Part shown: positions 8,001 to 51,335 of the stretch, piece by piece | Layout: every line of letters starts with the position of its first letter | Numbering within the stretch: the stretch's first letter is position 1 | From: a virus | Virus record (IMG/VR): IMGVR_UViG_3300012923_000008 | Span: 1 to 64,000 of that record | DNA: 64,000 nucleotides | Strand: one strand, 5' to 3' | Translations under genes and position numbers: made by a program | Notes under the pieces: model-generated | What the model saw: only the letters and a program-made list of their open reading frames with translations | Told to the model about the DNA's origin: nothing | Database searches by the model: none

Positions 8001-10119
8001 TTTGTCGACCGCATTGCCAGAATTGCGTAGTTCTGCTGGAGATATACTTGCCCGGGTTAAAGGAGCAAGGCAATATGACGAGTTGACAAGTCAACCGACT
8101 ACGGAGAAACTGACTAGGCAAATCCATGAACACTTGAACACTACTCTCCCGCCAATGGACGTTATGAATCTACGGCAAATGCAGCAGGATGCAGAAATAT
8201 ATGAATCTGAGGTCGGACCGAGAACTTTAACCGGTGAACCTCCTACAGCCGGCCGGGATGTACTTATCGGACGACCAGATATGGACATTCGGGTCAATCG
8301 CGGGGAGGAACTGGATCCTAGAGGATTTACAAGGAACCCGTATGGGGGTGGCACGACAAGAGTATTACCATTCCAGGGGGGTGGGATAGTCGCGGGGATG
8401 CTACAAGAACAGGTAGAGCAGCAGGGGAGTATCTTTCCACAAAGCGAGGGCTATTCTTCCCCATCACTATTCTCTTCTTCTACCCCAACGAGTATCTCTC
8501 GTTCTATTGATCCCGGACTTGCTTCTCTCCCCGGCACGATGGCGAATGAACTCTACCAAGCCCAGGTGGAAAAGGGGATGAACATTGGGCTCGGCTTCGG
8601 TCCCGGAGCGATGAAATTCTCCCGCCTAACGTCTAAGGCTGATACCCTTATGCAAGAGGCGGAACGGGTACAGCTTTATGCCGAAGGTAAAGAAGATCCC
8701 GTTGCCAGTGCAATAATTGCCCGGCGGTCTTACGACCCAACGAGTGCGAAGATTGAGCTCATGAGATCGTATTTACCGTCCGAATATCCCGAGATGAAGG
8801 GTGGGTTTGCCGCTGGTATGGGCAAGGGTGTCCTTGGTTCGAGGTTTATGTTAGAAGCGGCGAGAGAGTACTTTCGTTCTCATCCGGATATTAATGAACT
8901 TTCTGGACTTCGGGTCTCCGGGGCACGGGAACAGGCCGGGTCTGAGAGTTATGCGACGATTTATCGCTCGATGGTCCTTAAGGGGGAAAAGTCAGGTTTT
9001 CAAGAAGGTGGTGTTGCTGAAAAAGAATTTCAGCTTGCTAATGCCCAGATCATTTATCCTGGTGGTCCGTTGATGAAACAATCGTCTATGCCCCGGATAA
9101 TAGTGGACGATAAATATTGGGGTACAGCGTGGGGAGCCGGGCGTAATCAGGAGTTTCCACTCCCGGACCCGGCGAATGCGACAAAGCTAGGAATACCCAA
9201 ATTCCATACTGGTGGGAAGGCATCAAATGAGGTGATAGCGAAGCTTCTTACCAATGAGAGAGTACTGAGCCCAGACGAAACCAAAGCGTATGACTCGTTG
9301 CCGAAGTTCCACTCCGGGGGTTTTGTTTGGCCGGCATTTGCTGAGGGTGGAACGGTCTCCGATGAAGGAATGGTCGGTGGAAGTGCGAGCTATGCCTCGG
9401 CGAGAGGTGGTTCTAGTTCTACCGATGCCCGGGCGGTGTATTCGAGTATTGGCAGTCTTTCGTCGAGTATGTCAGTTTTATCCTCTGATGTGGAGAAAGT
9501 TGCTAGTGGGTTTAAATCCTTAGAACGGGCTACGGGTCCTGCAACACAGTCTACGGGAAGACTTTCCGGTGAACTAAGTGCGGTAGGGAGTGCATTAGGG
9601 ACGTTTAAGGGAATATTGAGTTCCTTTAGTAGTATGGGTAGTGGGGGTGCTGGTGGAGGAGCGGGGGGCGCCGCCGGTGGGATAGGACAGATATTTAGTC
9701 TCTTCGGTACGATAGGTGGCCTTTTTGGTCTCCAGAAGGGTGGTCTACGCGAAGTCACTGGTAGCGGCGGAACTGACTCCCAACTGGTTCAGTTCATGGC
9801 TACCCCCGGCGAAATGGTCAGTGTTACGACACCAGAACAGCATAGAGCATCTATGGTCGGCGGGCTGCCACATTTTGCAGGTGGCGGAAATTTGACTGTG
9901 GGGAAGAGTTTGGCTTCGAATGTATCACAATCCATTCAAGGAGCAGCGAGTCAAATCACTGGTGGACCAGGAACTAGTGGAGTAAATGTTACCATTGGAA
10001 GTATCAATGGTGTGATGAATGCCCATGATGTTAAGGGGCTATTGATGTCTCATTTTGAGACTTTTGCCCGGGCGTTTCAGCGGGCGAGTAGGAATAACTT
10101 TGACTTGCCAGGACGCTGA
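2017..10119 (+). CDS. Tape measure protein with internal lytic transglycosylase domain
   Basis: 2700 residues from GTG 2017. The N-terminal ~320 residues are coiled-coil, with a duplicated VAQF.FA..IAP unit. A Gly/Ala-rich hydrophobic stretch is at about 649-690 and a second at about 1869-1893. Around residues 1222-1360 lies a soluble lytic transglycosylase-like domain with VVDIESSHGANMGDP; Glu1248 is the expected catalytic acid. The C-terminal half has many GG-flanked units with LTPGEFVV (about 1499), LLTNERVLS (about 2410) and MATPGEMVS (about 2594), typical of siphophage tape measures. Using the usual ~0.15 nm per residue this implies a tail near 0.4 micrometre. It sets tail length and probably opens peptidoglycan during DNA entry. 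Confidence 0.95.
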   Translation: MPDNELGIVFRGRDESASSTIKKIEANIKGLEADIIALQTRITSASQTDLTIKTNVEGLQALHANLKSLEGVLVENKVLLQEYQDKLNSLRAGGVVDAGLAREKELSPFTKAPAESLATNVIGQGNLSGATAELERQLAVMRQLGATAGEYTSIQSSQLATRLAVLQAETQAMKDLAKEKEAANVAQFAFAQRIAPQESITNYRRELQRTVEEAEKLSVAQFKFAEQIAPSSNIAERLQLEKNLATAESNIRRMGLEEEKRLGAEAVELKRQAYRNIADDAAKAAAAEIAAQSKVALSAAAIRQMPIVGRVRLWGADDATKEAAGLDFYANATARVRAAIENTANSARRMQGAISDFHRELSHAGGNIDQTTYAVRKLITVLDETARGQSGQRISTIGSAIRDLGVGRALPIIAPIGLGLAAIEVTHLVSEYSKLATKTDDAARAAGVGVEEYSRLARVLQLAGISAERLPTAMGQLSQSIRTAITEPLSAKGTAFAEIFGKDFFTDLPKFEEEPLKSENIDKLRQKYQELARTVGEFQAMGVFRAALGRTEWVELAPLITAAETEYQKWNKAVADSHLPFTSGEVEKLREVDFATKKLAEDWEYLGKATALFAGNTGLIAFIDSVVLKLGALARNSREAGIALESIGTGIVVGGAVGTAVMPGLGTVVGAGLGAIGGGVAGAKIAEGTRPATGPRPGPEPGSIIVPVPPRPPGTPISTPSEASTREEAGRRANIPTTTSDDERSQYPQLYGFGGAKIAPESLVSEAVKYREEIEQTHRVIEARLDAEKTEALGRARSETDRQRIEEDFSRREAANRAKAVQEERDMLTLYRQRMQDVSEPVRPLAEKDLSRRVGVQIEVEEFNTRKKLAQEEERFRREGFRVYDEEKRVELQLAKGNAAQIEQIYQERLAAAKAAFGEEGIEFKRLQLEHIEAAQAATNKMLQDRMRIQDTIGRISETEIRITAAGMEAGELDQTIGKKVDHTAAYKAEQVLIQQTAASQIEAYQAIAAAAGENTEIKIQNLEKAALWAENAANQEVQLARKISQEMHKAAEESSKVFVQFFDKTGSAFETFIDDAVFRTKTWQQATRDLILGIDKDLLHTTEKLGSQLAAQGLAQTFGVKLESGKGIGDLLGQMAGRALGLAPGTEDKQALTNSLAQDAKQQRGTVIQILGQIRDAATAQAQNVGTIQAGAGIPRTAERLPPVKVPVERDTLSPIGQRTVTPSQVSAAGQKYGFSPGFSNAVVDIESSHGANMGDPRRTQYGGNVLQLNEGERRRSGFSGSGMGTPEEQLDYGFRNLSMRREELKAKLGRDVTEREVFLAHNQGVAGASGLLANPTTPAGVVIRRTGEGPENISGNFQGNPNAPAQEFVNRVYSRLERGEERFSRDSSATSATSATSSVSSQTSEKVQQLGQTSTTTASSLEKLGQAADKIGPSVFGSSGELNRGEKDTPAWAFAKAHNVSAEEEAKTFGLPAPYAYGGPVYGFQYGGMGTDTIQAMLTPGEFVVKNAAVGHYGVDFLHSINNMALPKGFAAGGKVGEDSSPDSSGWLSDLFGSNKKPDRKQEFWNLWPLPERQKSIGMTLGASSRSDFASAAAPLAPIPQSFLSQVDQLPIPETTAPRSFSGSQITANASRFQSGGEVSKRIEDSDRPSREKYFPEVVVRLPETSEQASEAIRQELAGENRTYQEIMTSLSSSGYALRQEDRESGARYAGKTLTDLPSRSERKYWENYATGIHSQIGQGKLSSQEALKDAERVAPIGNTGIYTQSVREAFLSPREQTDLTIGEAQYGMFPGSAREMVQPQGFAQGGSVAYFSFGGINTPPPLANTPQPYKGTGSPMTTPTISGGFTTESRGFVSPTLYTVHPKPNLGGLLAILGIGAVGLAGVVGLEKLLSNDEKKKAERLLAAKETTGGWTGQGIPDRLSEDSLRSLSTSQISGLPDDVSGLCGGGAVGLQEGGIARGENTSIESLRYGIDPLEDQFRSFGQLQKSRPGPDLSTALPELRSSAGDILARVKGARQYDELTSQPTTEKLTRQIHEHLNTTLPPMDVMNLRQMQQDAEIYESEVGPRTLTGEPPTAGRDVLIGRPDMDIRVNRGEELDPRGFTRNPYGGGTTRVLPFQGGGIVAGMLQEQVEQQGSIFPQSEGYSSPSLFSSSTPTSISRSIDPGLASLPGTMANELYQAQVEKGMNIGLGFGPGAMKFSRLTSKADTLMQEAERVQLYAEGKEDPVASAIIARRSYDPTSAKIELMRSYLPSEYPEMKGGFAAGMGKGVLGSRFMLEAAREYFRSHPDINELSGLRVSGAREQAGSESYATIYRSMVLKGEKSGFQEGGVAEKEFQLANAQIIYPGGPLMKQSSMPRIIVDDKYWGTAWGAGRNQEFPLPDPANATKLGIPKFHTGGKASNEVIAKLLTNERVLSPDETKAYDSLPKFHSGGFVWPAFAEGGTVSDEGMVGGSASYASARGGSSSTDARAVYSSIGSLSSSMSVLSSDVEKVASGFKSLERATGPATQSTGRLSGELSAVGSALGTFKGILSSFSSMGSGGAGGGAGGAAGGIGQIFSLFGTIGGLFGLQKGGLREVTGSGGTDSQLVQFMATPGEMVSVTTPEQHRASMVGGLPHFAGGGNLTVGKSLASNVSQSIQGAASQITGGPGTSGVNVTIGSINGVMNAHDVKGLLMSHFETFARAFQRASRNNFDLPGR

Positions 10120-10352
10120 TGGAGGGTAAGGTTGTTGATTTTATACCCGAGAAAATCGATAGGTGGAAGTATAAACAGATCTATGATCTTCTCCCCGGGA
10201 AGTCTATTCTATATGAATGGGATTTGTTCAAGAACGTTCCTGATCCTTGGAGTAATATGAGAACGGTCGCTTGGGTCTATGGTAGGAAATTAAATTGGAA
10301 ACTAAGAGCCTTCAAGCGCAAAGAGGGTATTTATATTTCTCGGATCGAGTAG
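10119..10352 (+). CDS. Hypothetical protein after the tape measure gene
   Basis: 77 residues, ATG overlapping the TGA of the tape measure gene by one base. Rich in Trp, Lys and Tyr (WKYKQIYDLLPGK; AWVYGRKLNWKLRAFKR), with a basic C-terminus. No family recognised. It could be a small tail adaptor or a nucleic-acid-binding protein; the sequence does not decide. Confidence 0.65.
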   Translation: MEGKVVDFIPEKIDRWKYKQIYDLLPGKSILYEWDLFKNVPDPWSNMRTVAWVYGRKLNWKLRAFKRKEGIYISRIE

Positions 10353-24983: not shown

Positions 24984-25163
24984 TTAGGTAGGAGTATTTA
25001 GTCTTTCTATTTCGTCGCTTACACTACGGTTTATGTAGTCGATATACAGTCGGGTAAATACCATCTTCATCTCTTCTGGTTTGATTTTTAGTACTCTTGA
25101 ATGGTATAGGCTTTTCCCTTCGCCGCAGACTATTACGATGCTGATTGATTTTAGTTCTTTCAT
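24984..25163 (-). CDS. Hypothetical small protein
   Basis: 59 residues from ATG 25163 (AAGGAAAGACTCTC upstream), overlapping the previous stop as ATGA. Begins MKELKSISIVIVCGEGKSLY and ends EIERLNTPT. No family recognised. Confidence 0.6.
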   Translation of the reverse strand: MKELKSISIVIVCGEGKSLYHSRVLKIKPEEMKMVFTRLYIDYINRSVSDEIERLNTPT

Positions 25164-25525
25164 GAGAGTCTTTCCTTCCAAAGTTTGAGCATTTCTTCCC
25201 GGCGCTGTATGAGTATGTTACGCTCCGCTAGCGTTGTGATGTGTTTACAGTTGGAGCAATGTCCTAGACTATCTTTTAGAGTTCGACTGATTTGTAGTCC
25301 ATTGATCCTTTCGGTTTCGCCGGGGACCATGAAACCGCCGCTGTTTGAACATGTGAAACATGGACTGCAACTGTCCATAGTACGATCAGCGGCGTCGAAT
25401 AGTCTTTGTAAGGCTTTATCTTCTCTCTTTATTTCTTCACTCCCACGTTCTTCACTTTCGAACTCGAAACAACGGCCTTTTCGTAGACACTCGTGTTGAG
25501 TAGTACAGATTTCACAAAAAGCCAT
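25160..25525 (-). CDS. Cys-rich, probably zinc-binding protein
   Basis: 121 residues with eleven cysteines in pairs: CEICTTQHEC at the start, CSPCFTCSNSGGF in the middle and GHCSNCKHIT near the end. The spacing suggests two or three zinc knuckles. The central DAADRTMDSCSPCFTCSNSG resembles small conserved phage proteins of unknown function. Lies in the replication operon. Confidence 0.65.
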   Translation of the reverse strand: MAFCEICTTQHECLRKGRCFEFESEERGSEEIKREDKALQRLFDAADRTMDSCSPCFTCSNSGGFMVPGETERINGLQISRTLKDSLGHCSNCKHITTLAERNILIQRREEMLKLWKERLS

Positions 25526-25741
25526 TTATCGCTTTGCTCCCGGTTTGTCGAGGGTTTCCCATCGCTGTGGATAGCAATCAATAGAATTAATGGGCCATCC
25601 GGCTTCCTGAAGTTCTTGGGAGAATTTCTCGATGGCATCCATTACCTCTTCTAATGGAATGTATTCGGGGTCTTTTTGCCTAATGTGGACGTTTATACCG
25701 GCGGTGTGAATGTCGGCGCACATTTGCCACAGGGTTGTCAT
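25526..25741 (-). CDS. Hypothetical small protein after DNA polymerase
   Basis: 71 residues, ATG overlapping the polymerase stop by four bases. Helical, acidic (IPLEEVMDAIEKFSQELQEA). No family recognised; translationally coupled to the polymerase. Confidence 0.6.
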   Translation of the reverse strand: MTTLWQMCADIHTAGINVHIRQKDPEYIPLEEVMDAIEKFSQELQEAGWPINSIDCYPQRWETLDKPGAKR

Positions 25742-27228
25742 CTCTTCATTCCCGGCTTGTCGAGTCCTCGGGGGTTGATTTCGATCTGCTTTCCGTTCTC
25801 GTACTTGTATCGCATTCCTTTGTTCCAGCCGGTTTTGGCTTCGGTGGGAACAGAGAAGGATCTAGATTTGGTAAGAGGGATTTCAACTCTGAGTAGTTCT
25901 TGAGCAATACGCAGGACCTCGTCTTCATCGTCATCCTCGCGGAATTGGAAGTACCACGCGTCGTGTTCTTGAGTGAGGAGCTGTATTCGTTCTTTCATCT
26001 TAGTCCACATTCGATAACCACCGAGGTTTATATCGTCGGCGTTGGCACTGGCTTGCATAAATGCCGCGGCTTGACGGATAGTTTCTTCGGAGTCGGGCCG
26101 GTCAAAGAAGTCTCTGCGGCGGCCGAAAATATTGACTAGATACTGTTTTGTTTGGATTTGATGCGCGAGCCAGCGGTGATATTTGGGAATTGCAGGGAAG
26201 GCACGGAAGTACCTTTCTTGAAAGTCAATCACCGTTTGGACAGGGAGGTTGTTGTAAATTGATATTGTCGGGGGTTTTCCCAGAATGTTTGTGGCGTGGC
26301 CGACCTTTTTTGCTACTTGTCGGTAAGTGTCTTTGGCGATTAGGAGTGGACCTTCTGCCACTCGGCGGTCTTTTTTAAGATCCCCGGTCCAAGGAAGTTC
26401 GTTTGGCCAAGCCATACGGGCTATTGTGGTGTGTCCATCGCTGGTCTCCAGGGCGTCTAGATAGGTCCAGTCATCGAAGAGGATACCACATAGAAGTCCC
26501 ACGTGTCGGCTCTCGGCTTGTTCTTTGTCTATCCCGCAGAGCTTGTAGCCGGGGTCCGCGATGAACATCCGGCGAAGCTTTTCGTCTACGTTTTGGAGAT
26601 TCCCCCCGGTGCCGGTGAAAGACTTCGAGCTACTCCAGCGACCCTCGTTTGTCCCGGCGATATTGAAGGAGGTCCGTATTCGCCAGTCGGGGTCGATTTC
26701 CATCTCGAGTTTTTCCCGCTGTTTTGAAAGGCTACGACAGGCGAGAATTGCTGCGGCGATGATCCTCGCCCGGGGGAATCTGGTCCGGATCTTCTCCAGG
26801 GTCTCTTCATCCATTGGACGTTTAGTCTCGCCTCCGAAGTGAGTCTCTATAGGATGGATTCTCATTACGTTGTAAAAGAGGTTTTGGATTTGCTGAGAGG
26901 AATTGAAAAAATACGGGGCTTGATCGAACCCTGTGGTTTGACCGGAGGCGGCGTGTACTAATTCGGCGAGGAAAGAGTTAATCCCCTTGAGTCGCTCTTT
27001 TATGTCTATTATTCCTCTGTCCTGTTCCATTGGGTCTATTAAGAATCCCCTTAGCATCATCTCCATCGCCGGACCTTGCATGGCGCGGGAGAGAGAATAG
27101 ACTGGATCAGCACCGGGGAGAGAGAGAAGTTTGTCGAGGATTCCGTAGGTTCTACATACGTCATAGCCGTTGTAGATTTGGGGGTCGGAGGAGGGGGCGT
27201 TTAGTTCGTGGGTGGCGACTAGGGGCAT
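25738..27228 (-). CDS. Family A DNA polymerase, polymerase domain (separate from its exonuclease)
   Basis: 496 residues from ATG 27228; the longer start at 27255 has no binding site. Motif A is CGIDKEQAESRHVG, the O-helix region is RQVAKKVGHATNILG and motif C is EHDAWYF, so the second acid of the usual HDE is Ala. The N-terminus has no complete exonuclease but begins with YNGYDVCRT (Tyr19, Asp23), which is the ExoIII motif of a DEDDy proofreading domain whose ExoI and ExoII motifs are in the gene at 29001-30191. So the polymerase is divided inside its exonuclease domain. F762 and Y766 positions of E. coli Pol I correspond to His and Ile here. Confidence 0.9.
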   Translation of the reverse strand: MPLVATHELNAPSSDPQIYNGYDVCRTYGILDKLLSLPGADPVYSLSRAMQGPAMEMMLRGFLIDPMEQDRGIIDIKERLKGINSFLAELVHAASGQTTGFDQAPYFFNSSQQIQNLFYNVMRIHPIETHFGGETKRPMDEETLEKIRTRFPRARIIAAAILACRSLSKQREKLEMEIDPDWRIRTSFNIAGTNEGRWSSSKSFTGTGGNLQNVDEKLRRMFIADPGYKLCGIDKEQAESRHVGLLCGILFDDWTYLDALETSDGHTTIARMAWPNELPWTGDLKKDRRVAEGPLLIAKDTYRQVAKKVGHATNILGKPPTISIYNNLPVQTVIDFQERYFRAFPAIPKYHRWLAHQIQTKQYLVNIFGRRRDFFDRPDSEETIRQAAAFMQASANADDINLGGYRMWTKMKERIQLLTQEHDAWYFQFREDDDEDEVLRIAQELLRVEIPLTKSRSFSVPTEAKTGWNKGMRYKYENGKQIEINPRGLDKPGMKR

Positions 27229-27569
27229 GAGTTGTTCTCTTTTATGGTTCCCCAATGGTTGTTTCTATTTGGGTCTGGCTCGGATAGAAATCTGTGATTA
27301 CCACCGATGTCGGGATCGTGTAGCTTTATCATACTACACTTATATAGTGTCATAATGACTTTTGGTCCCGTTAGTTTTATCTCGAAACTTTCAGGTAACG
27401 GCCATTGTCCGATAGAGATAGCCCGGGCTACGATTGTTATTTTTGTTCGAGAATCGCCTGGGTCATTATGTGTTATTGTCATTTCGAACTCGGCGGAGAC
27501 GTCTTGAAGAATACCGATTCGTTCGCCGTTGGAGTTAATTGTGCCTTCGGGGAAAAGGAGCATTGACAC
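27219..27569 (-). CDS. Hypothetical protein
   Basis: 116 residues, end overlapping the polymerase start by ten bases. Alternating beta-type sequence (SAEFEMTITHNDPGDSRTK, FEIKLTGPKVIMTLYKCSMI). A start at the second Met (MLLFPEG) is possible. No family recognised; it is one of six genes lying between the two polymerase halves. Confidence 0.6.
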   Translation of the reverse strand: MSMLLFPEGTINSNGERIGILQDVSAEFEMTITHNDPGDSRTKITIVARAISIGQWPLPESFEIKLTGPKVIMTLYKCSMIKLHDPDIGGNHRFLSEPDPNRNNHWGTIKENNSCP

Positions 27570-27572
27570 CTT

Positions 27573-28028
27573 TTAATTTCCTTTTTCGAATATTGCGTCC
27601 TGACCAGGCTTCTGGTCTTGGAACTTCCCTTCATAGGGTTGTAGAGTGGGTTCTTCGAGACGGAAAAAGATCACCTGTACTATTCCGGTCCCTTTGTAGA
27701 TCGCGAGTGGTTTCTCCCCGCCGTGCATATTGATCTCGAGTCTCAGTACTCCGCGCCAGCCAGGCTCCACGACGGTCGTGGCGTGTTCCACATGGAGGCG
27801 TGCCCAGGTAGACTTGGAGGTCAGGATTCCTAATACGTCGTCGGGCATGTTGAGACGTTCTATGGTATCGGCTCTAATGGATCGTCCTGGCCAGAGGGTT
27901 ATGTCTTCGGCTAGGCGCAGGTCGTACCCGGCAGGACCTAGACCGTAGGTCACTCCGTTGAAACGAGTGCGGGGGGCGCAAGGGGAGATGAGACCGAGTC
28001 GTTGTATGGTCTGCGCGGGGAGGATCAT
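27573..28028 (-). CDS. dcd: dCTP deaminase / dUTPase family protein
   Basis: 151 residues from ATG 28028 (GAGG ten bases upstream); 28046 is an alternative. The trimeric dUTPase-like fold is shown by LTSKSTWARLHVEHATTVVE, GWRGVLRLEI and the C-terminal YEGKFQDQKPG. The SxR and VE-x-GW motifs are those of dCTP deaminases, whose Glu is catalytic. It would convert dCTP to dUTP or hydrolyse dUTP, feeding dTTP synthesis and keeping uracil out of DNA. Fits with the uracil-DNA-glycosylase-like domain on the nearby polymerase half. Confidence 0.85.
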   Translation of the reverse strand: MILPAQTIQRLGLISPCAPRTRFNGVTYGLGPAGYDLRLAEDITLWPGRSIRADTIERLNMPDDVLGILTSKSTWARLHVEHATTVVEPGWRGVLRLEINMHGGEKPLAIYKGTGIVQVIFFRLEEPTLQPYEGKFQDQKPGQDAIFEKGN

Positions 28029-28411
28029 TGGTGATTTTCCTCGCATAGAATATGTCCACAGACCTTGCAGGTGGGGTATTTTTCTATCTCATGTTCTAAG
28101 GGAACCGGCAAGTGTTTTCCTTTCACCCGCTTCGCACGCATCTCGAGCATTAGTATCATATGTCGGGCATGGCCGATGCAGATCTCTGTCTCGGCACAAG
28201 GGATTTGGTTATTGAGATAAAGCAAGCGATCTATTAGAGCCCGGAGGACTTCTTGGCAGTTCGTTCCAGGATGTGGAGATCCTTCATTTCCGGGGTATCT
28301 TTCTCCGATTCGTTTCATGAAGAAAAGATATTGACGAAATGGAGCCGGATCTTTTGGCACAACGTCGTAAACTTCTAGTACGTACGAGTGTCCGGGGGTT
28401 ATATACTTCAT
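28025..28411 (-). CDS. Conserved phage protein with C-terminal zinc-like site
   Basis: 128 residues. The core HPGTNCQEVLRALIDRLLYL followed by a helix with ARHMILMLEMRAKR and a C-terminal CKVCGHILCEENH (three Cys and a His) is a recurring small phage protein type whose function is unknown. Overlaps both neighbours by four bases. Confidence 0.7.
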   Translation of the reverse strand: MKYITPGHSYVLEVYDVVPKDPAPFRQYLFFMKRIGERYPGNEGSPHPGTNCQEVLRALIDRLLYLNNQIPCAETEICIGHARHMILMLEMRAKRVKGKHLPVPLEHEIEKYPTCKVCGHILCEENHQ

Positions 28412-28608
28412 TTTAGTGGTATTCCTGTTCCTTTAACACTGTTCACAAGCCATTCACCAAAGGCGAGAAGATCCTCCGGGCTGAATAGAATTTCCGGGCC
28501 GCCTTGGAGTGATAAAGAATAACCCAATGGTCCTACGACCGAGTGTGAACAGCAAAATACTGTAATAAAGGCACCGTGTTTTGTTGAGAACGATGTTGTC
28601 GAGTTCAT
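28408..28608 (-). CDS. Hypothetical protein
   Basis: 66 residues if started at ATG 28608 (ATG 28617 and 28680 are alternatives). The start lies in the third copy of a repeated ribosome-binding-site element (28606-28635). Sequence is mixed alpha/beta with GGPEILFSPEDLLAFGEWLV. No family recognised. Confidence 0.55.
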   Translation of the reverse strand: MNSTTSFSTKHGAFITVFCCSHSVVGPLGYSLSLQGGPEILFSPEDLLAFGEWLVNSVKGTGIPLK

Positions 28609-28635
28609 CTCAGTCATCCCGTTTGAGTGATTCAC
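28606..28635 (-). repeat. Gene-junction repeat, copy 3
   Basis: On the minus strand this reads TGAATCACTCAAACGGGATG then ACTGAGATGA. It encodes ESLKRDD and the stop of the upstream gene and supplies the GGGA box and ATG for the downstream gene. Two more copies are at 28808-28838 and 28997-29025. Confidence 0.6.
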
Positions 28636-28810
28636 CATTTCCTGTGAGAGCGTACTGAGCAAACTTTTCCCTCTGTTCATCTGATATTGAACGCTGTAAT
28701 CGAGCTACAATCGAAAGTAAAGCATATCTCGAAACCAGTCCCTGATTAGTAAGGGAATATAACAGGAGGGCCAAATCTATGACCGTGACGTCGTCCATGT
28801 GTATTTGCAT
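28610..28810 (-). CDS. Hypothetical protein ending ESLKRDD
   Basis: 66 residues, helical (VIDLALLLYSLTNQG; IVARLQRSISDEQREKFAQY). Its last seven residues, ESLKRDD, are identical to the last seven of the UDG/exonuclease gene, because both ends lie in a repeated DNA element. ATG 28810 follows another copy of that element. Confidence 0.55.
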   Translation of the reverse strand: MQIHMDDVTVIDLALLLYSLTNQGLVSRYALLSIVARLQRSISDEQREKFAQYALTGNGESLKRDD

Positions 28811-28838
28811 CTTTAGTTATCTTTCCCTCTTGAGAGAG
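28808..28838 (-). repeat. Gene-junction repeat, copy 2
   Basis: Minus strand TTCTCTCTCAAGAGGGAAAG then ATAACTAAAGATG. Shares CTCTCAAGAGGGA with copy 1 and encodes SLKRER plus the stop of the upstream gene, followed by the ATG of the next. Most diverged of the three copies. Confidence 0.55.
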
Positions 28839-28999
28839 AAGAGTCTTCGGTGATCGAGATAGATATTACCCATTAATAAAAGTAGTACTGGAACTATTTC
28901 TCGTGGATGGGAATCACAAGTCCATAATAATAAAAGAAGAGTGAATCCAGTACCCAAACCGTAGAGATATGGACGCATGTTGGGATTACGATTGCTCAT
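28817..28999 (-). CDS. Small membrane protein
   Basis: 60 residues from ATG 28999; GAGGGA nine bases upstream favours this over ATG 29008. Two hydrophobic segments (YGLGTGFTLLLLLW and EIVPVLLLLMGNIYL) with a basic C-terminus SLKRER. It is the first of six genes between the polymerase halves. Function unknown. Confidence 0.6.
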   Translation of the reverse strand: MSNRNPNMRPYLYGLGTGFTLLLLLWTCDSHPREIVPVLLLLMGNIYLDHRRLFSLKRER

Positions 29000-29025
29000 T
29001 TTAGTCATCCCTCTTGAGAGATTCA
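28997..29025 (-). repeat. Gene-junction repeat, copy 1
   Basis: Minus strand TGAATCTCTCAAGAGGGATG then ACTAAAATG. It encodes the ESLKRDD end of the UDG/exonuclease protein and the ribosome binding site and ATG of the next gene. Copies 2 and 3 lie 190 and 390 bases downstream. Confidence 0.65.
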
Positions 29026-30191
29026 CTGCCGTACATGGTCTTCCAGGGTGAGTCATTACGATAGATCGAGTCCAGGTAGCCTAGTCCTTTTGGCATTTCG
29101 GGGTACAGGGCATGATGAAGGAGCATTGTGTCGTGGACACAATTTCTGGGTCTTATTCCACAGCAGAGGAGTCTATTCACGTCGTACATGCCGTTTTGAA
29201 ACACCAGCTCGGCACCGGTGTTAAGGCCATACTCGACCCAATCCCACGCCCTGACTTCGTGCCACTGATCGGACCAGAAGGAAGCGAGCTCTCCATTGTC
29301 CTCACGTCTCGTCATAAAGGGGATACAGAGACTCTGACTCTCGCTCCGGGCGAAGCCGACCATAGAGATTTGCCGGGTGAGGATGTTGTAAGATTTTGGG
29401 GTGTGCTTTTTCATACGCTGTAGTTCAGCCTTAGTGTAGAGTACCGTTCCTGATTCTATGTCGCAGGAGAATCTTTGAGCCGGGACTTTAAACCAATTCT
29501 CGATCTCGTCGAGGGTAGGGTAGTTTAGTTGCCAGGTCTTTGGACGAGTGATGAGCGAAGAGTGACTTTCCTGTGCGGCTTTCTTGAGGTCGGAAATAAT
29601 TGTAGGGCGAAGACTCCAGTCGCGTAGTGCTGCCGGGTGATAGGTTGGGAGAGCCTTGATTCCAAACCTAGTATTCTGTACTGTTCCCCTTATGGTGCTG
29701 ATCTTTGTCTGCTGTAATACCGCCCAGCAAGCGGTATTACCAAGAGGAATGAGAATGTTAGGTGAGAGGGAGATGATTTCCTCGAAGAGATTGTCTAAAT
29801 GATGACGGAAGGCTTTAAGAAGATAGAGTTTTTTCGCTCCGACTATGTAGGGCGGAATGTCTAGGCAGACGTCGTCGAGTCTTCCGCCAAAGAAGAGCTG
29901 TTCGTTATCCTTATGAGGGTGTTCGTGGAAGACATTGGTCACTCCTACCCCTTGGTTCCTTACTTGTGCCCAGAACTTGACCATCTGGAGGAAATTCACT
30001 GGGTTGAAGGTTCCGCAGGGGCAGTAGCCGAATGGGACTCGCTGGTGACAGTGACGGCATTCGATGATTAGAGGGAGGCAGAGGCCACTTTCTCCAGCCA
30101 TCCGAGCGAGTTCCTGTCCACTTCTCCCGACAAAGTATGCACCTGGTCCTTCGTTAACTCCCCAGGATTCGCCGATTAGGAGGGCTCGCAA
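29001..30191 (-). CDS. Uracil-DNA-glycosylase-like domain fused to 3'-5' exonuclease (split Pol A, N-terminal half)
   Basis: 396 residues. N-terminal ~215 residues resemble family 4 uracil-DNA glycosylases: GESWGVNEGPGAYFVGRSGQ at the start, LIPLGNTACWAVL, and YHPAALRD as the HPS-like motif; a CRHCHQRVPFGYCPCG cluster could hold iron-sulphur or zinc. The second part is a DEDD exonuclease with ExoI CDIESG (Asp244, Glu246) and ExoII FQNGMYDVNRL (Asn333, Asp337). The frame stops before ExoIII, which is at the start of the polymerase gene 1.8 kb downstream. UDG-exonuclease-polymerase order is known in single phage polymerases. Glycosylase activity is not proven by sequence. Confidence 0.85.
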   Translation of the reverse strand: MRALLIGESWGVNEGPGAYFVGRSGQELARMAGESGLCLPLIIECRHCHQRVPFGYCPCGTFNPVNFLQMVKFWAQVRNQGVGVTNVFHEHPHKDNEQLFFGGRLDDVCLDIPPYIVGAKKLYLLKAFRHHLDNLFEEIISLSPNILIPLGNTACWAVLQQTKISTIRGTVQNTRFGIKALPTYHPAALRDWSLRPTIISDLKKAAQESHSSLITRPKTWQLNYPTLDEIENWFKVPAQRFSCDIESGTVLYTKAELQRMKKHTPKSYNILTRQISMVGFARSESQSLCIPFMTRREDNGELASFWSDQWHEVRAWDWVEYGLNTGAELVFQNGMYDVNRLLCCGIRPRNCVHDTMLLHHALYPEMPKGLGYLDSIYRNDSPWKTMYGSESLKRDD

Positions 30192-30195
30192 AGGA

Positions 30196-30399
30196 TTACA
30201 TTCCTTCTAGGGCACATTTTACTGATGTGATTGTGCTTGTATGATATATTCCCTGTTTTTCCCATAATTCCCGTAGCTCTTTTGCCCGGAGAAGTATCTT
30301 GTCGTTTGGATCATCCTGGTGTTTGTATTCGTATCGTGCCGCTGAGATCATTCCGAATTGGTCGTGTTTGTGTTCGAGATCAAATCCTTTGTAGATCAT
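30196..30399 (-). CDS. Hypothetical protein
   Basis: 67 residues directly before the UDG/exonuclease gene (four-base gap). Begins MIYKGFDLEHKHDQFGMISA and has a helical LLRAKELRELWEKQG centre. No family recognised. Confidence 0.6.
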   Translation of the reverse strand: MIYKGFDLEHKHDQFGMISAARYEYKHQDDPNDKILLRAKELRELWEKQGIYHTSTITSVKCALEGM

Positions 30400-30416
30400 G
30401 TGATTTTCCTTTCCCT

Positions 30417-30635
30417 TTATATTTTAAACCTGCCAAGTGAACTTCGCTGTAGTTGTACCGTTTCTAGATCCATCACGCGCCGGTGAAGAATCTCTAGTGT
30501 GTTCATGTTGCTACGTAATGCCCCGGCGAGTTGATCTATACTTTTCGTATGGTATGCAATTGATACGTTTATTTCATTAATTAGGTCTATTAAGATTTTT
30601 TCACTGTTTTGATTTCTCTTGCGAAAGAATAGCAT
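30417..30635 (-). CDS. Small coiled-coil protein
   Basis: 72 residues, mostly one long amphipathic helix (SEKILIDLINEINVSIAYHT; MNTLEILHRRVMDLETVQ) with basic ends. AAGGAAAAGACA precedes the ATG. Probably a small oligomer; function unknown. The ~130 bases upstream contain an ACACTATA / TATAGTGT inverted repeat at 30697-30704 and 30724-30731 but no gene. Confidence 0.6.
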   Translation of the reverse strand: MLFFRKRNQNSEKILIDLINEINVSIAYHTKSIDQLAGALRSNMNTLEILHRRVMDLETVQLQRSSLGRFKI

Positions 30636-30767
30636 TGTCTTTTCCTTTCTCCTTTTGCCACCGAATTATCCGCCGCTCGGTGGCCACACGACTGCCACAC
30701 TATATCCGCAGGAGGAGGAACGGTATAGTGTTGGATGGGGAGAAGAGGTAGTGGGGTAGAGCTTTCT

Positions 30768-31292
30768 CTATCGTGGGTCTTGACTCAGGGCCGTCATCAC
30801 GTTGAACTCGACGATCCGTTCGTTTGCGGTTCCTTCGTCCCGCTTGTAACTGTCCCGGCCGATTTGCATGAGGACCTTCTTACCTCGCATTTCGGAGATG
30901 CATTCGTCCATGGGCTTCGCTTCGGGGAAACCCATCGAGGTGAAGAACTCCCGGTTCATACTCATGGCGCCAGTGGCGATCCATATCTGCCCGGCGGGTA
31001 GGACTCCACCGCAGCGATCCCGGCGGGGGAATTCGTAGTCGGTGAGGCTTACCCCGTTGAGGAGCTTTTGCATTTCTGGGGTTACGTCAGGGCCGAATTC
31101 GTTTGGTTGACAGATAAAGGCGAAGTACCGGGTACCTTTGTTCGAGCTTTTTCCGGTAACGAGATCGATGCACTCTCCAAAGAGATGACAGAGAGGGAGA
31201 AGAGGCTTTGCTTCCCACTCGCCGATTGGTTTCGCGATCATCTCGCGAAGATCGACAGGGAGGTCATCAAAGACTTGGTCTTGTACAGGCAT
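30768..31292 (-). CDS. Hypothetical protein of the recombination/replication module
   Basis: 174 residues, between RecT and the polymerase genes. Contains KGTRYFAFICQPNEFGPDV and near the end KKVLMQIGRDSYKRDEGTAN followed by IVEFNVM. In phages the gene next to RecT is often a single-strand DNA-binding protein, and the closing beta strands would suit an OB fold, but no motif confirms this. Conserved-looking and of normal composition. Confidence 0.65.
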   Translation of the reverse strand: MPVQDQVFDDLPVDLREMIAKPIGEWEAKPLLPLCHLFGECIDLVTGKSSNKGTRYFAFICQPNEFGPDVTPEMQKLLNGVSLTDYEFPRRDRCGGVLPAGQIWIATGAMSMNREFFTSMGFPEAKPMDECISEMRGKKVLMQIGRDSYKRDEGTANERIVEFNVMTALSQDPR

Positions 31293-39000: not shown

Positions 39001-39249
39001 TCATGAAGAATGGGGATTGGAGGTTATTATTCGCATTGGATTTTTGTTCTTTCTCTTCGGATCTCGCCAGGCGGTGATGGGTTTACTGACGTGGACATTG
39101 TTGAGGGAATGGAATAAGGAATCGTTGGGGTGACGATTGCCGCCGGCACTTTCTAGTTCAAGAATAATAAAGTTTCGGATCTCGTTGAAACTTGCATGGT
39201 TAGGTGGGTCGAATTTGATAAGGACTGTGATCGGTGGACGTTTTCTCAT
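39001..39249 (-). CDS. Hypothetical protein
   Basis: 82 residues: ITVLIKFDPPNHASFNEIRN resembles a small ferredoxin-like beta-alpha unit; basic tail (WRDPKRKNKNP). ATGA overlap with the CobT-like gene. Confidence 0.6.
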   Translation of the reverse strand: MRKRPPITVLIKFDPPNHASFNEIRNFIILELESAGGNRHPNDSLFHSLNNVHVSKPITAWRDPKRKNKNPMRIITSNPHSS

Positions 39250-41144
39250 CTTACGACTCCTTTTAAGATCTGTAGTAGAGTCCGTGGAAGGGTTTCGATG
39301 TCTTGTATCCTTTCACACTTATCGACGTAACGGCGGAGAAATGAGACTGTCCTTTCCGTTCCTATTCCAAGACCTAGAGTTTCTATTCCTAATCTCTTGG
39401 CTTTTTTATGGATGGTTTCCATGAGAAGATAATCACTATGTCTTCGGTCAGCTTTGAGGAAATCGGGGGTTCCGTCGGTGACTAGAAAGATTATTCTTCT
39501 GGGTTCGGTTCTATTTAGGATTCTTTCTAGTGCTTTTCCGTAGGCGCAACCGAGAGGGGTAGAGCCATAAGTTTCTATTGCGCCGAGTTTAGCTCGGGAT
39601 TTGGTATAGGGTTCGGAGTAGTCCTTGAAGATGAGAATGTCCATTCCTTGTAGGCGGCCAATGCCGGGGCCTGAACGGCTTGAATAACGTCCATTGGTCG
39701 TGAAGCCGGAAATAGAAAGTTTTATCTCGGGTATTGCACCTAGTGCTTCTGCGAGAACTATTGCCGCGGATCGGACTAAAATTTCGTTCATAGAGACGCT
39801 TAGATCAAGGAGAAGCTCGACAGAGGTGTTAATGAGATTTTTGTCACGCCGTTCTTTGAAGATAGAGCTTTGACCAAGGGCTGTGATGTGAAGACGTTCC
39901 CGGTCTAGGGTTTCGGCATCTTCGAGGCCGCGGAGCCAGGACTTCTTGCTCTTTGCCTGAAGGTGTATGCGGAACATTTTCTTTAGAGAGAGGATTTGCG
40001 GGGCGAGGGAAGCACGAGTGTAAAGGTAGGTTTCCAGGTCTTCTTCACTCGGGACGAAAATTCTGTCGAGGGAAAGGTCGGCGGGAGGAGAGATAGAGTC
40101 ACCGGTGTGTGGGGGGGATTGATGAGGAAGAGGATCATGAAAAGAATTATAAGACGATATGGCTTCGATGAGGGAGTTTAATAGGTTTTTGACTTCGGTT
40201 AGAGTGTTCCATTCTTGGGCGGAAGAAGAGAGGCTTGATGGAGATGGAGTTTCACTTGGATCTTCGCCCGGCGAGGGAAATGGAAAATTCCCAATGCTAT
40301 CGGAGTGTTCCGGATTATCGCCGGGTGATAGGTTGGTTTCGTCTAGGGGAAATTCACTAGGATTAGAACTAGAACTAGTATCTCCATTCCCGGGGTCTCG
40401 TTCCTTGTTATCCTCTTCGTTTGCATCGCTTTGCTCCTGGAATAGGGCTGTTATCTTCTCGGCGAGAACGATACAGTCCGCCGTGGATTGGCAGAGAGGG
40501 AGATTTGCCATCTCGATGGCAATTTCTGGGTGGAGAGTTTCTAATTCTCCCTGAAGTCTCTTCGTGTCGATGTTGCGGTACTTCTTATAGGCTTCTTTGT
40601 AAAGGAGGCCCATTATGTCAGGGTTTTGACATTTCTCGATGGGTATTCTATCGTCGAGATATTGCGCGAGAGCGTTGAGATACTTCTTGTCGCCGGGGTA
40701 TTTCCTTATGTCGAGGTTTTCTATCCTTATGTCTTCGAGGACGTTTAAGACGTAGGAGAATACTGAATCGTGTTTCTGTTTTATTGTTTTCAGGTAGAGT
40801 GGGAGATCGGTGTGGGTCTGGTGTCCCGGCCCCTCGTGGAGGGCATAGCCGAAGAAGATAGAGAATTGAGATGGGGTTAGGAAGGTCCCGGCGGGTAGGG
40901 CGGGGAGTTGGACGAGGGATTCGGTGGTATAGCCTTCATTGCCGCCGAAACGGATGGAGAGGTGATGGCCATCGCGGGTGGAGAGGTGGATAACGCGGGT
41001 GACTAGTTCTTGAAAGCTGTGAAGTTTCACAGGGGATAATCCTCTTTCTCTTTCATGTCGGGGTTCCAGGCCATCCCCCACCACATTAGTTTCCAGAGGA
41101 GAAACTCTATGAGGGCGGCGAACCAGTTTATTGGACAATACCAC
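39246..41144 (-). CDS. CobT-like VWA domain protein
   Basis: 632 residues from GTG. Three parts: an N-terminal region with ALHEGPGHQTHTDLPLYL (His103-Glu-x3-His108), like the CobT N-terminus but with an HExxxH spacing; a long acidic Ser/Pro/Glu linker (about 240-330); and a VWA domain whose metal site is LLLDLSVSM (Asp447-x-Ser-x-Ser451) with a later LVTDGTPD. CobT pairs with AAA+ CobS in cobalt chelatase, but CobS/CobT-like pairs also occur in phages without cobalamin genes. The partner AAA+ gene is directly upstream. Likely a remodelling machine of unknown target. Confidence 0.85.
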   Translation of the reverse strand: MVLSNKLVRRPHRVSPLETNVVGDGLEPRHERERGLSPVKLHSFQELVTRVIHLSTRDGHHLSIRFGGNEGYTTESLVQLPALPAGTFLTPSQFSIFFGYALHEGPGHQTHTDLPLYLKTIKQKHDSVFSYVLNVLEDIRIENLDIRKYPGDKKYLNALAQYLDDRIPIEKCQNPDIMGLLYKEAYKKYRNIDTKRLQGELETLHPEIAIEMANLPLCQSTADCIVLAEKITALFQEQSDANEEDNKERDPGNGDTSSSSNPSEFPLDETNLSPGDNPEHSDSIGNFPFPSPGEDPSETPSPSSLSSSAQEWNTLTEVKNLLNSLIEAISSYNSFHDPLPHQSPPHTGDSISPPADLSLDRIFVPSEEDLETYLYTRASLAPQILSLKKMFRIHLQAKSKKSWLRGLEDAETLDRERLHITALGQSSIFKERRDKNLINTSVELLLDLSVSMNEILVRSAAIVLAEALGAIPEIKLSISGFTTNGRYSSRSGPGIGRLQGMDILIFKDYSEPYTKSRAKLGAIETYGSTPLGCAYGKALERILNRTEPRRIIFLVTDGTPDFLKADRRHSDYLLMETIHKKAKRLGIETLGLGIGTERTVSFLRRYVDKCERIQDIETLPRTLLQILKGVVR

Positions 41145-41177
41145 TTGAGTCCTTGAAACGATGGATGAAGTTTCATT

Positions 41178-42797
41178 CTATTCCTCCTCTAACGTGATGT
41201 CTAGTCTATCGAGGAAGGTCTTTACGAGTTCTCTATCGTCGTCATCGAGCCAGGAGAGGAGGCAAAGAGAAAGGGCCTCTGTGAGTGAGAAGCCTTGCTG
41301 TCTTTGTTCGAAGAAGGAGATGAGCTTTCTTGTGGAAAGTGTTATGGCGAGTTCGCCTCTTGAGAAGGCTTTGCGGACTTCTTCGGCGAGGGAGAGAATT
41401 TTATCAAGTTCTATCTCTGGACCATCTACCTCGATGTAGTCATTGAACCTGTCTAGGAGCATTTCTTCTTCTTTGGTCCGAGGTAAATAGTCCATTATCA
41501 CACTATAGTCGAATCTATCTAGTGTGGCGGTGTTTTGTACCTCTGTCCCCGTGAACTGGCCAGTGCTGTCACCTTTCCCGCCGGTGTTGTCGGTAGCGAG
41601 GACGCAAAAACCAGGAGAGGCACGAAGGATTTCTCCTGTCTCTGGGATAAAAAGCTTCCCATTGCGTTCTAGGACTGGGTGGAGAATGGCGGCCAGGTTC
41701 GGTGGAAGAAAAGAGAACTCATCGACTAGAAGGGCGAGCCCGTTTCGCATTGCCGTGGGTAGTGCCCCGTCTTGAAAATAGGTCTCCCCGTTCTTTAGTT
41801 TTATTCCACCGAGGAAGAATTCTCTCGTTATCCCGTCGTGGGGATTGATCCGGAATAGGCCGTGGCTTAGCAGGGCACAGACCTGTTCGACGAGCATGGT
41901 TTTCCCACACCCGGCCGGGCCGTGGAGGTAGACGTGTCGATCAGTTGTGAGGGCCTTTCTGACTACCCTACTGGCAAAGGGATCGAAGTAGAATTTGTGA
42001 TCAATGACGGGTACGAATGGAGAGTGAGTAGCCTCTCTATCTAAATCTATTCCAAAGTCTAGCTCCGGCTCTAGTTCTTCTTTCTGTTCCGCCGTGGCGG
42101 GGCTCTGTTTTCCGGTACGCCCTGTCGAGCGGGGATTGCTTCGCAGAGCTTGAAACACTATCTCGTCGGCGGTCTTTTGGACTAGGGAGATGATTTTTTT
42201 CTCCACCCCTTCACTGATTTTAAATTCTATTGTTTCGTTTTCTAATGATGATTTGATATTCTTGATGATGTCGGGTCTTAATTGGGTAACGACTTGCTGT
42301 ACTGCGTCAGTGGTTTGGATTCTGATTTCCTCTCTAAAGAAAATGAGTTTTTTCTCTATCGTTGCATCGACTGTGCGTAATAATTCTTCCACCGGATCTT
42401 TTGGGCGAAAGTTTAATGGGACGGTGGGAAATGGATTAGGGAGATTTACTTTAGGAATAGCCGAAGCCTTCTCGAAAGCCGAAGCCCTTTCGAAGAGGTT
42501 TCTCATTTCGTCGGGGTCGTTTAGGATATTTTCGACATCTAGGGCGTTCTGAGACCTTCGCCCTTTGGCGAGATTCTTTGGCCGATTTCCTAGTATTACG
42601 TCGAAGTAGTTCTTAATGCAATAGCACTTTTCTAATTGTTCGTGGCGGAGTTGATTTATTTTCTCTTGTGGCATACCTTTGAGGTTGAGCCATTGACATA
42701 GGTCAAGGCTGTTTGCGTTTTCGATGAAATGATTTGGGTGTTTTCCTTGCCAGGGTATCCCGCCGATGCGGTTTTCGAGAGAAAGGAGGTCGGTCAT
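41178..42797 (-). CDS. CobS/MoxR-like AAA+ ATPase
   Basis: 539 residues. The C-terminal ~270 residues are an AAA+ domain: Walker A GPAGCGKTM near 292-300, LALLVDEFSFL as Walker B near 345, LDRFDYSVIMDYLP as the arginine-finger/sensor region. Around 100-200 is a coiled-coil spacer. N-terminal ~70 residues (IPWQGKHPNHFIENANSLDL; HEQLEKCYCIKNYFDV) form a separate small domain. MoxR/CobS ATPases act with VWA partners; the CobT-like gene follows. Codon use is like its neighbours. Confidence 0.88.
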   Translation of the reverse strand: MTDLLSLENRIGGIPWQGKHPNHFIENANSLDLCQWLNLKGMPQEKINQLRHEQLEKCYCIKNYFDVILGNRPKNLAKGRRSQNALDVENILNDPDEMRNLFERASAFEKASAIPKVNLPNPFPTVPLNFRPKDPVEELLRTVDATIEKKLIFFREEIRIQTTDAVQQVVTQLRPDIIKNIKSSLENETIEFKISEGVEKKIISLVQKTADEIVFQALRSNPRSTGRTGKQSPATAEQKEELEPELDFGIDLDREATHSPFVPVIDHKFYFDPFASRVVRKALTTDRHVYLHGPAGCGKTMLVEQVCALLSHGLFRINPHDGITREFFLGGIKLKNGETYFQDGALPTAMRNGLALLVDEFSFLPPNLAAILHPVLERNGKLFIPETGEILRASPGFCVLATDNTGGKGDSTGQFTGTEVQNTATLDRFDYSVIMDYLPRTKEEEMLLDRFNDYIEVDGPEIELDKILSLAEEVRKAFSRGELAITLSTRKLISFFEQRQQGFSLTEALSLCLLSWLDDDDRELVKTFLDRLDITLEEE

Positions 42798-50157: not shown

Positions 50158-50587
50158 TCCTTCCCCTTTAGAGATCCAGTCCTGGCTGGAATGGGCCGGG
50201 GGAAGGATGCTCACTATACAGGTCCACGGGGTATGGCCCTCTTCTTATCGTTCTTTCTGGCCTGACTACCCAGATGATCCTAATACAGCCTTTGGTTATA
50301 CTCCGGAAAATTATAGAGCTGCCACTCCTTCTCCTACCGAATTATCATTGACAGATAGAATATCTATGTTAGTTCTTCTAATTTCCATAGCGAAGATTAG
50401 AAGAATTGTGCAAATGAGATCTCTCGTTTCTCCTATTAGAAATAATTACATCTATTCTTGGTCCCGCATCGCCGAAATACTTAATTCGGACCGCCGGATA
50501 GTAAAGTATAACCATGGGAAAGGTTTATCTATTATCTCAACCAAAATCGAGATGTCTGAAGCAAAGTACATTAGGGACAAACTCTAA
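50129..50587 (+). CDS. DUF6362-like DNA-binding protein
   Basis: 152 residues. LEWAGGRMLTIQVHGVWPSS, YRSFWPDYPDDPNTAFGY and the helical end YSWSRIAEILNSDRRIVKYN match a phage family with a C-terminal helix-turn-helix (DUF6362) usually located next to terminase genes. ATG lies within the previous gene and its TAA overlaps the HNH start by one base. May act in packaging-site recognition; not proven. Confidence 0.65.
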   Translation: MSLKPIASASPSPLEIQSWLEWAGGRMLTIQVHGVWPSSYRSFWPDYPDDPNTAFGYTPENYRAATPSPTELSLTDRISMLVLLISIAKIRRIVQMRSLVSPIRNNYIYSWSRIAEILNSDRRIVKYNHGKGLSIISTKIEMSEAKYIRDKL

Positions 50588-51165
50588 TGTCTATATACAC
50601 AGAAGGTATATTTGTCAACGGGACGAAGTTCTGTAAGAAATGCAATTTAAGAAGGTCGATCGAAGATTTCCCCGTTTCTCGTAAAGGTCACACTAGCCGC
50701 TACTGTGTCACTTGTTTCACATCAATAGTGAGAGAAGTAAAACCGATCTCTGATCGTAGAGGTACCATTTTTTACCATATAAAAGCTCTCTTTTTATCAG
50801 CAAGACAACGCACAGAAAAGTCGAAGTACAAAGCAGCTAATGTAAACAACTATGAAGGAGTTATCCAGTTCGATATTACAGAGAACTATCTGTACTCAAT
50901 TTATGAGAGTCAGCGCGGAAAATGTGCTCTATCAGGGCGAGAGATGACTTTAGGTAAACCGGAGAACGGCTTCCCTGATAAAAACGCGATGTCACTTGAT
51001 CGCATAATTCCGTTATTGGGATACGTTAAAGGAAATGTACGTTTTGTCACACATCAAGTTAATATGGCAAAAGGGATGTATAATGACGAAGACTTGATTC
51101 AGTTAGTTTTTGATATAACGGCCCATCAGAAATATCTTGACAAAGCCCGGACGGTTGCCCCATGA
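50587..51165 (+). CDS. HNH-type homing endonuclease-like protein
   Basis: 192 residues. N-terminal zinc knuckle FCKKCNLRRSIEDFPVSRKG / RYCVTCF; middle helix; then CALSGREM, MSLDRIIPLLGYVKGNVRFV and THQVNMAKGMYNDEDLIQLV, which is the standard HNH-fold sequence SLDRI-x-GY-x-GNV-x-VN-x-K. Catalytic His appears in TH after the GNV strand. Freestanding or intron-borne endonucleases of this type spread by cutting terminase genes; its placement directly before terminase large subunit fits that. Confidence 0.82.
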   Translation: MSIYTEGIFVNGTKFCKKCNLRRSIEDFPVSRKGHTSRYCVTCFTSIVREVKPISDRRGTIFYHIKALFLSARQRTEKSKYKAANVNNYEGVIQFDITENYLYSIYESQRGKCALSGREMTLGKPENGFPDKNAMSLDRIIPLLGYVKGNVRFVTHQVNMAKGMYNDEDLIQLVFDITAHQKYLDKARTVAP

Positions 51166-51335
51166 TCTTTGCTATGCTCGGGACCGTGTACCCCGAGTAT
51201 GCCGGTCCCCCGGCTCTTTAGCACTTTGTCATCTCTCGTCTCCTTCGTCAAGACTAGGGCCAGAAGCGGAAGGTAGTAGGGGCCATCTCCTCCTCCTTTC
51301 TCTCCTGGCCCTAAACTTTTAGGAAAGCCCTTCCT
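51166..51335 (+). other. Structured gap before terminase large subunit
   Basis: 170 bases with no supported gene. Two perfect inverted repeats: GGGACCG / CGGTCCC (51180-51186, 51203-51209) and TAGGGCCAG / CTGGCCCTA (51255-51263, 51305-51313). The second is followed at once by the terminase frame. Could be a riboregulatory leader or the 3' part of an intron; no group I core was identified with confidence. Confidence 0.6.

Follow-up and report, generated by a model that had tools for sequence, protein, structure and literature searches.

Replicative DNA polymerases that are encoded as two separate proteins have been described before. In T4-related Aeromonas phages gp43 is split as 43A and 43B, and the two proteins of phage 25 co-purify and are active (PMC2988022). 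The PolB of Methanothermobacter thermautotrophicus naturally consists of two polypeptides (PMC7776575), and the OM43 phages MEP401 and MEP402, like most related genomes, encode their family-A polymerase in two open reading frames (ORFs) with a small gene between them (PMC10580990). Here we describe a family-A polymerase gene that is divided within its proofreading domain, found in a virus sequence of 64,000 nucleotides (positions 1 to 64,000 of IMG/VR record IMGVR_UViG_3300012923_000008; hereafter, the window). One gene, EXO, encodes a UDG-superfamily domain and exonuclease motifs ExoI and ExoII; the other, POL, encodes motif ExoIII and the polymerase domain. A split polymerase as such is already known. 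What is new is that the cut runs through the exonuclease active site itself, and that the split combines a single old origin and broad conservation with a variable gene cassette in the gap.

The Aeromonas gp43 resembles the window in that a phage replicative polymerase is made as two separately encoded proteins, but it belongs to family B, and in a few phages its split goes with a seg endonuclease or with an untranslated stretch between the cistrons; the M. thermautotrophicus enzyme differs in being archaeal and of family B. In MEP401 and MEP402 the cut falls inside the polymerase domain, which leaves the exonuclease domain whole on one ORF, unlike the window. The related UDG-exonuclease-polymerase enzymes of ctLwi270 (MW202554) and Vibrio phage VS-ABTNL-3 are likewise interrupted by an inserted gene, but the cut lies after ExoIII in the former and inside the polymerase domain in the latter. 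At the ctLwi270 locus (L272, 1727-4364) it is placed just past ExoIII, and an NrdR-like zinc-ribbon gene stands between the halves. The Microcystis phage Mel-JY34 and the isolate ctMlz233 share with the window the order UDG-exonuclease-polymerase and a DUF3987 helicase/primase-like neighbour, and their enzymes are homologous over nearly the full length of both window halves. They differ in having one continuous ORF and a short loop between ExoII and ExoIII, and they form a separate clade whose proteins are ~25-30% identical to those of the window. In the open-access literature searched, we found no description of the split reported here.

The ORFs and motifs of the window agree with what the initial annotation had described: ExoI and ExoII (D244/E246, N333/D337) are separated from ExoIII (Y19, D23) by 1772 bases that hold six small genes, including a dCTP deaminase identified by a PF22769 match. 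No single polypeptide carries ExoI, ExoII and ExoIII; the set is complete only across EXO and POL jointly. EXO matches the UDG fold at the curated threshold (PF03167, 36.2 bits, cutoff 24.3) and is not typed to UDG family 4 (NCBIfam UDG_fam4, 37.6 versus a cutoff of 125.3), while POL matches PF00476 DNA_pol_A with 78.7 bits. PHROG_17, annotated as "DNA polymerase", matches both proteins at positions that do not overlap, EXO at 552-779 and POL at 894-1242 of the model, and profiles of the two halves align to different parts of the Klenow fragment (EXO to chain residues 14-124, POL to 168-587). We place the start of POL at the ATG at 27228 and its stop at 25738; a TTG nine codons upstream is a possible alternative start.

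We scanned viral contigs from IMG/VR, metagenome-assembled genomes (MAGs), and cultured phages for further examples. Single-sequence scans of IMG/VR returned 12 relatives of POL and 3 of EXO, every one split at the identical place. Profile scans gave at least 590 POL and at least 545 EXO candidates, from which the best 80 of each were kept and joined by 8 MAG loci; since loci were picked by similarity, the counts below apply to its nearest members and not to the family as a whole. Both halves with a stop between them were present in 171 loci, or 111 after near copies had been removed, and the cut lies at the identical point in 110 of these 111. In the exception, L052, EXO stops early, apparently through a frameshift. 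The sole isolate found in the clade, Caulobacter phage Kuura (OQ067476), has the same cut; it differs from the window in a gap of 612 bases with two genes and in an EXO annotated merely as a hypothetical protein, and the text searched of the Kuura paper (PMC9959647) does not mention the split. The phage group that carries this arrangement is widespread and almost uncultured. Because the arrangement recurs in more than 100 divergent loci, it is not a product of chance. The split had been called unusual in the initial annotation, which holds against family-A polymerases generally but not within this phage group, where it is universal in everything sampled.

Comparison of the loci further shows that both of the separately encoded chains are conserved, as in a naturally split, two-subunit phage polymerase. 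In all 96 aligned EXO/POL pairs the six exonuclease residues of ExoI, ExoII, and ExoIII are invariant, as are the motif A and C aspartates and the motif B lysine of the polymerase (D234, K307, D423; 96/96). Pairwise distances among EXO proteins track those among POL proteins (r = 0.85, with a permuted maximum of 0.09), as is expected of partners that are inherited together; shared phylogeny alone is expected to give the same. For structure prediction with AlphaFold we exploited two loci, L109 and L161, whose halves lie in one frame, reading through the stops so that an artificial linker of ~65 residues tethers the halves, with an alignment that combined relatives of either half with a few read-through rows and left Kuura out. 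The halves are predicted to assemble as one Klenow-like enzyme (model 1, predicted template modelling score [pTM] 0.85 and predicted local distance difference test [pLDDT] 88; model 2, pTM 0.87 and pLDDT 90.5). Only the linker and the adjoining ends, including the EXO tail, and in model 2 also the extreme C-terminus, fall below a pLDDT of 50. A Foldseek comparison of model 1 with the Klenow structure 8oo6 aligned 730 columns (E = 3.8e-24, template modelling score 0.77 by target length), and the N-terminus of POL is predicted as a beta strand in both models.

We consider it highly probable that an ancient, single fission gave rise to an obligate two-chain family-A polymerase, held together non-covalently, with a shared exonuclease site and a gap that serves as a changing cassette site. 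EXO and POL would be translated separately and, without splicing, dock as the two subunits of a single replicative DNA polymerase of family A, a Klenow-like enzyme the activity of which we infer. To its 3'-5' exonuclease site EXO would contribute Asp244, Glu246, Asn333, and Asp337, and POL would add Tyr19 and Asp23. Fission would have occurred once, in the common ancestor of a large clade of phages, within a loop on the protein surface that connects ExoII with ExoIII, and would never have been undone in anything sampled; the junction, once split, would tolerate gene gain and loss and so come to hold a changing set of small genes. Several points weigh against this scenario. Support for a physical complex with polymerase activity comes from AlphaFold prediction, the models join the halves through a read-through linker absent from nature, and docking of this kind is what fused homologues train a predictor to produce. 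The window EXO and POL lie in different frames, and the single-chain models are of L109 and L161 instead. Neither model places the EXO tail with confidence, and a coupling analysis of the 96 pairs, too shallow for inter-chain contacts, put its top pairs in variable columns.

The initial annotation had offered two ways in which the halves could be united, by non-covalent association or by removal of an intervening sequence at the RNA level. The former gains from ligands conserved across both chains, from models that assemble, and from some relatives in which the two genes, read in different frames, touch or overlap. The latter, in which the gap would be one or several introns and the exons would be joined in RNA, has a precedent in the group I introns that are frequent in phage polymerase genes and was considered for the split polymerase of the OM43 phages (PMC10580990), but we regard it as very unlikely here. 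The search for intron cores that the annotation proposed, made with Rfam over positions 25000-31000, gave no intron family above noise, and none reached threshold at ten related loci. The gaps of relatives hold unrelated, densely packed sense-strand genes, and because the two genes touch or overlap in another frame in ~14% of loci, there is no room in these for an intron and nothing to splice. Protein trans-splicing by a split intein would likewise yield one chain, and intein-like inserts do occur in this phage group, in motif B of the L013 POL and in the Walker A motif of the L007 DUF3987 helicase. These sit at other sites, neither junction end has intein sequence, as had been reported from the first reading, and the ends (13-20 residues after Trp-Lys and 17-31 before the ExoIII Tyr) are too short for intein halves; a split intein is thus exceedingly improbable.

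Could the halves be independent, EXO acting as a free-standing UDG/nuclease and POL as a polymerase that does not proofread? They are separate genes, at times far apart, and EXO has a UDG domain besides its exonuclease part. Neither half, however, has the full set of exonuclease ligands, and yet the six residues are invariant where drift would be expected, and the models assemble with pTM values of 0.85-0.87; we therefore judge independence improbable. An assembly artefact, or a decaying polymerase in one phage, might be suspected from a single metagenome-derived record, but this is refuted by recurrence: more than 100 independent contigs and the isolated phage Kuura share the split, with polymerase and exonuclease motifs intact, and we give the idea next to no credence. 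Nor is it credible, to any appreciable degree, that the gene was divided recently, in the window lineage, by a mobile element such as a homing endonuclease. HNH and GIY-YIG genes are present in some gaps, but no mobile element was recognised in that of the window, and the tree makes the split older than the clade.

A POL tree of 134 rows resolves split versus fused as one change, with a Shimodaira-Hasegawa-like approximate likelihood ratio test (SH-aLRT) support of 99. The addition of three deeper fused outgroups still gives one change, at a weaker support of 68 on long branches. In the fused sister clade, to which Mel-JY34 and ctMlz233 belong, 77 of the 82 loci fetched or examined are continuous. 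Two loci of this otherwise fused clade, L243 and L264, have the UDG part apart from the exonuclease-polymerase part, at about residue 214. An unsplit relative had been named in advance as evidence that would count against the split reading; such relatives do exist, but only in this separate and ~25-30% identical clade, where they show the ancestral continuous form.

The gap itself is far more labile. Its length ranges from -4 to 2793 bases across loci, with touching or overlapping genes at -4 to 29 nucleotides (nt), and even in a close trio it measures 156 (L061), 571 (L074), and -4 bases (L075). On the tree, EXO/POL adjacency requires a minimum of 11 changes, 8 of them forced by well-supported branches. 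Clustering sorted the 190 gap proteins into 123 groups, and their genes, all on the sense strand, cover about the whole gap; recognised families include dCTP deaminase, nucleotide pyrophosphohydrolase-like and nucleoside deoxyribosyltransferase-like proteins, DNA ligase, HNH, GIY-YIG, and methyltransferase. On the evidence of these sequences, the split is ancestral and shared by the whole clade, and what fills the gap varies and was added later. The idea in the initial annotation that genes had been inserted into the polymerase gene is thus only partly correct. The original split may itself go back to a mobile element, such as a homing endonuclease.

The ends at the cut are short. EXO ends 13-20 residues past an invariant Trp-Lys, POL runs 17-31 residues from its Met to the ExoIII Tyr, mostly starting M-x-[IV]-I-x-T, and the distance from Trp-Lys to the ExoIII Tyr is 18-25 residues in fused relatives versus ~32-48 summed over both split ends. 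The EXO tail has K at position -4 in 100 of 109 proteins and D or E at -2 in 103 of 109. Its AAG-AGG codons in the window resemble a Shine-Dalgarno sequence for the next gene, and AGG is the tail Arg codon in 32 of 65 cases versus a background of 9%, which suggests that the tail codons may double as a Shine-Dalgarno sequence for the following gene. That the conservation is a mere Shine-Dalgarno effect is partly true at the codon level, but the Lys at -4 is kept in 26 of 27 loci that lack a Shine-Dalgarno-like 4-mer; the K-R-D-E tail would be kept mainly at the protein level and perhaps partly as a ribosome-binding site.

We think it possible, though doubtful, that EXO is an exchangeable subunit whose amount or release tunes proofreading and uracil handling by its UDG domain, with the K-[RK]-[DE]-[DE] tail in a putative role as docking or release signal and the split kept for this function. 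Uracil handling would here go together with the nucleotide genes of the gap, dCTP deaminase among them.

Table 1. Features of the divided polymerase locus, in window coordinates.
Feature	Position	Strand	Description
EXO	29001-30191	-	396 aa; UDG-superfamily domain and N-terminal DnaQ-like 3'-5' exonuclease part (ExoI, ExoII)
ExoI Asp244-x-Glu246 codons	29454-29462	-	In EXO; invariant in 96/96
ExoII Asn333...Asp337 codons	29181-29195	-	In EXO; invariant in 96/96
EXO tail Lys-Arg-Asp-Asp	29004-29015	-	Immediately before stop; family consensus K-[RK]-[DE]-[DEA]
Gap	27229-29000	-	1772 nt; variable gene cassette, here six small sense-strand ORFs
Gap ORF 1	28817-28999	-	Small hydrophobic protein, no assigned family
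Gap ORF 2	28610-28810	-	66 aa, no assigned family
Gap ORF 3	28408-28680	-	At most 90 aa, no assigned family
Gap ORF 4	28025-28411	-	128 aa; no family match at threshold; the L094 gap has a homologue
Gap ORF 5	27573-28046	-	dCTP deaminase/dUTPase-like; PF22769 E=1e-17, phrog_1663 E=4.5e-38
Gap ORF 6	27219-27569	-	116 aa, no assigned family; 10-nt overlap with POL start
POL	25738-27228	-	496 aa; N-terminal segment MPLVATHEL (new), ExoIII, then family-A polymerase domain
ExoIII Tyr19...Asp23 codons	27160-27174	-	In POL, the second chain; invariant in 96/96; completes exonuclease site

Among the six gap ORFs of the window (Table 1), the deaminase alone could be assigned to a family at threshold. 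The 3' ends of EXO (28996-29026) and gap ORF 2 (28605-28635) share a 31-nt direct repeat with 84% identity, which gives both proteins the C-terminus ...ESLKRDD, and 14 nt of this repeat are also present in gap ORF 1. We rejected these 14-31 nt repeats as splice or recombination sites, as they coincide with the conserved tail and with an AAGAGGG motif that resembles a ribosome-binding site, and a search for the repeat patterns elsewhere in the window found no recurrence beyond chance.

Other observations concern inserts and neighbouring genes. Motif B of the L013 POL (8001-10349) has an in-frame intein-like insert of ~290 aa between GHG and SNYLG, running from CLTEDHEVLTPLGW to ITGN, which matches no Pfam or NCBIfam intein model. 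In the DUF3987 helicase/primase-like gene of L007 (9506-11152) an intein-like insert interrupts Walker A between GK and TQ, from CLAYGEHVLTYDG to VIHN, and L008 and L009 share this interruption. In the window the terminase large subunit (50587-52856, plus strand) has a frame open from 51315 and a Walker A motif STKSGKT, with no ATG, GTG, or TTG before 51696, and an endonuclease VII/HNH-like gene lies directly upstream; the start was possibly displaced by an insertion or intron, and no Rfam intron was found. A CbbQ/CobS-like AAA ATPase adjoins a CobT-like VWA protein (39249-42797, minus strand), a MoxR/VWA-type pair in a phage, and the portal protein (54652-57093, plus strand) is fused to an inorganic-pyrophosphatase-like domain (PF18823, E = 7e-36).

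These data also carry a warning for annotation, since an EXO labelled "hypothetical protein", as in Kuura, can mean that half of a replicase is overlooked. The locus offers a ready scaffold for split enzymes and shows clearly how a gene junction can turn into a site of gene exchange. It would present a natural proofreading active site built from two separately encoded proteins, which more than 100 divergent phage lineages have kept and none has re-fused. Why a polymerase stays split becomes a directly testable question.

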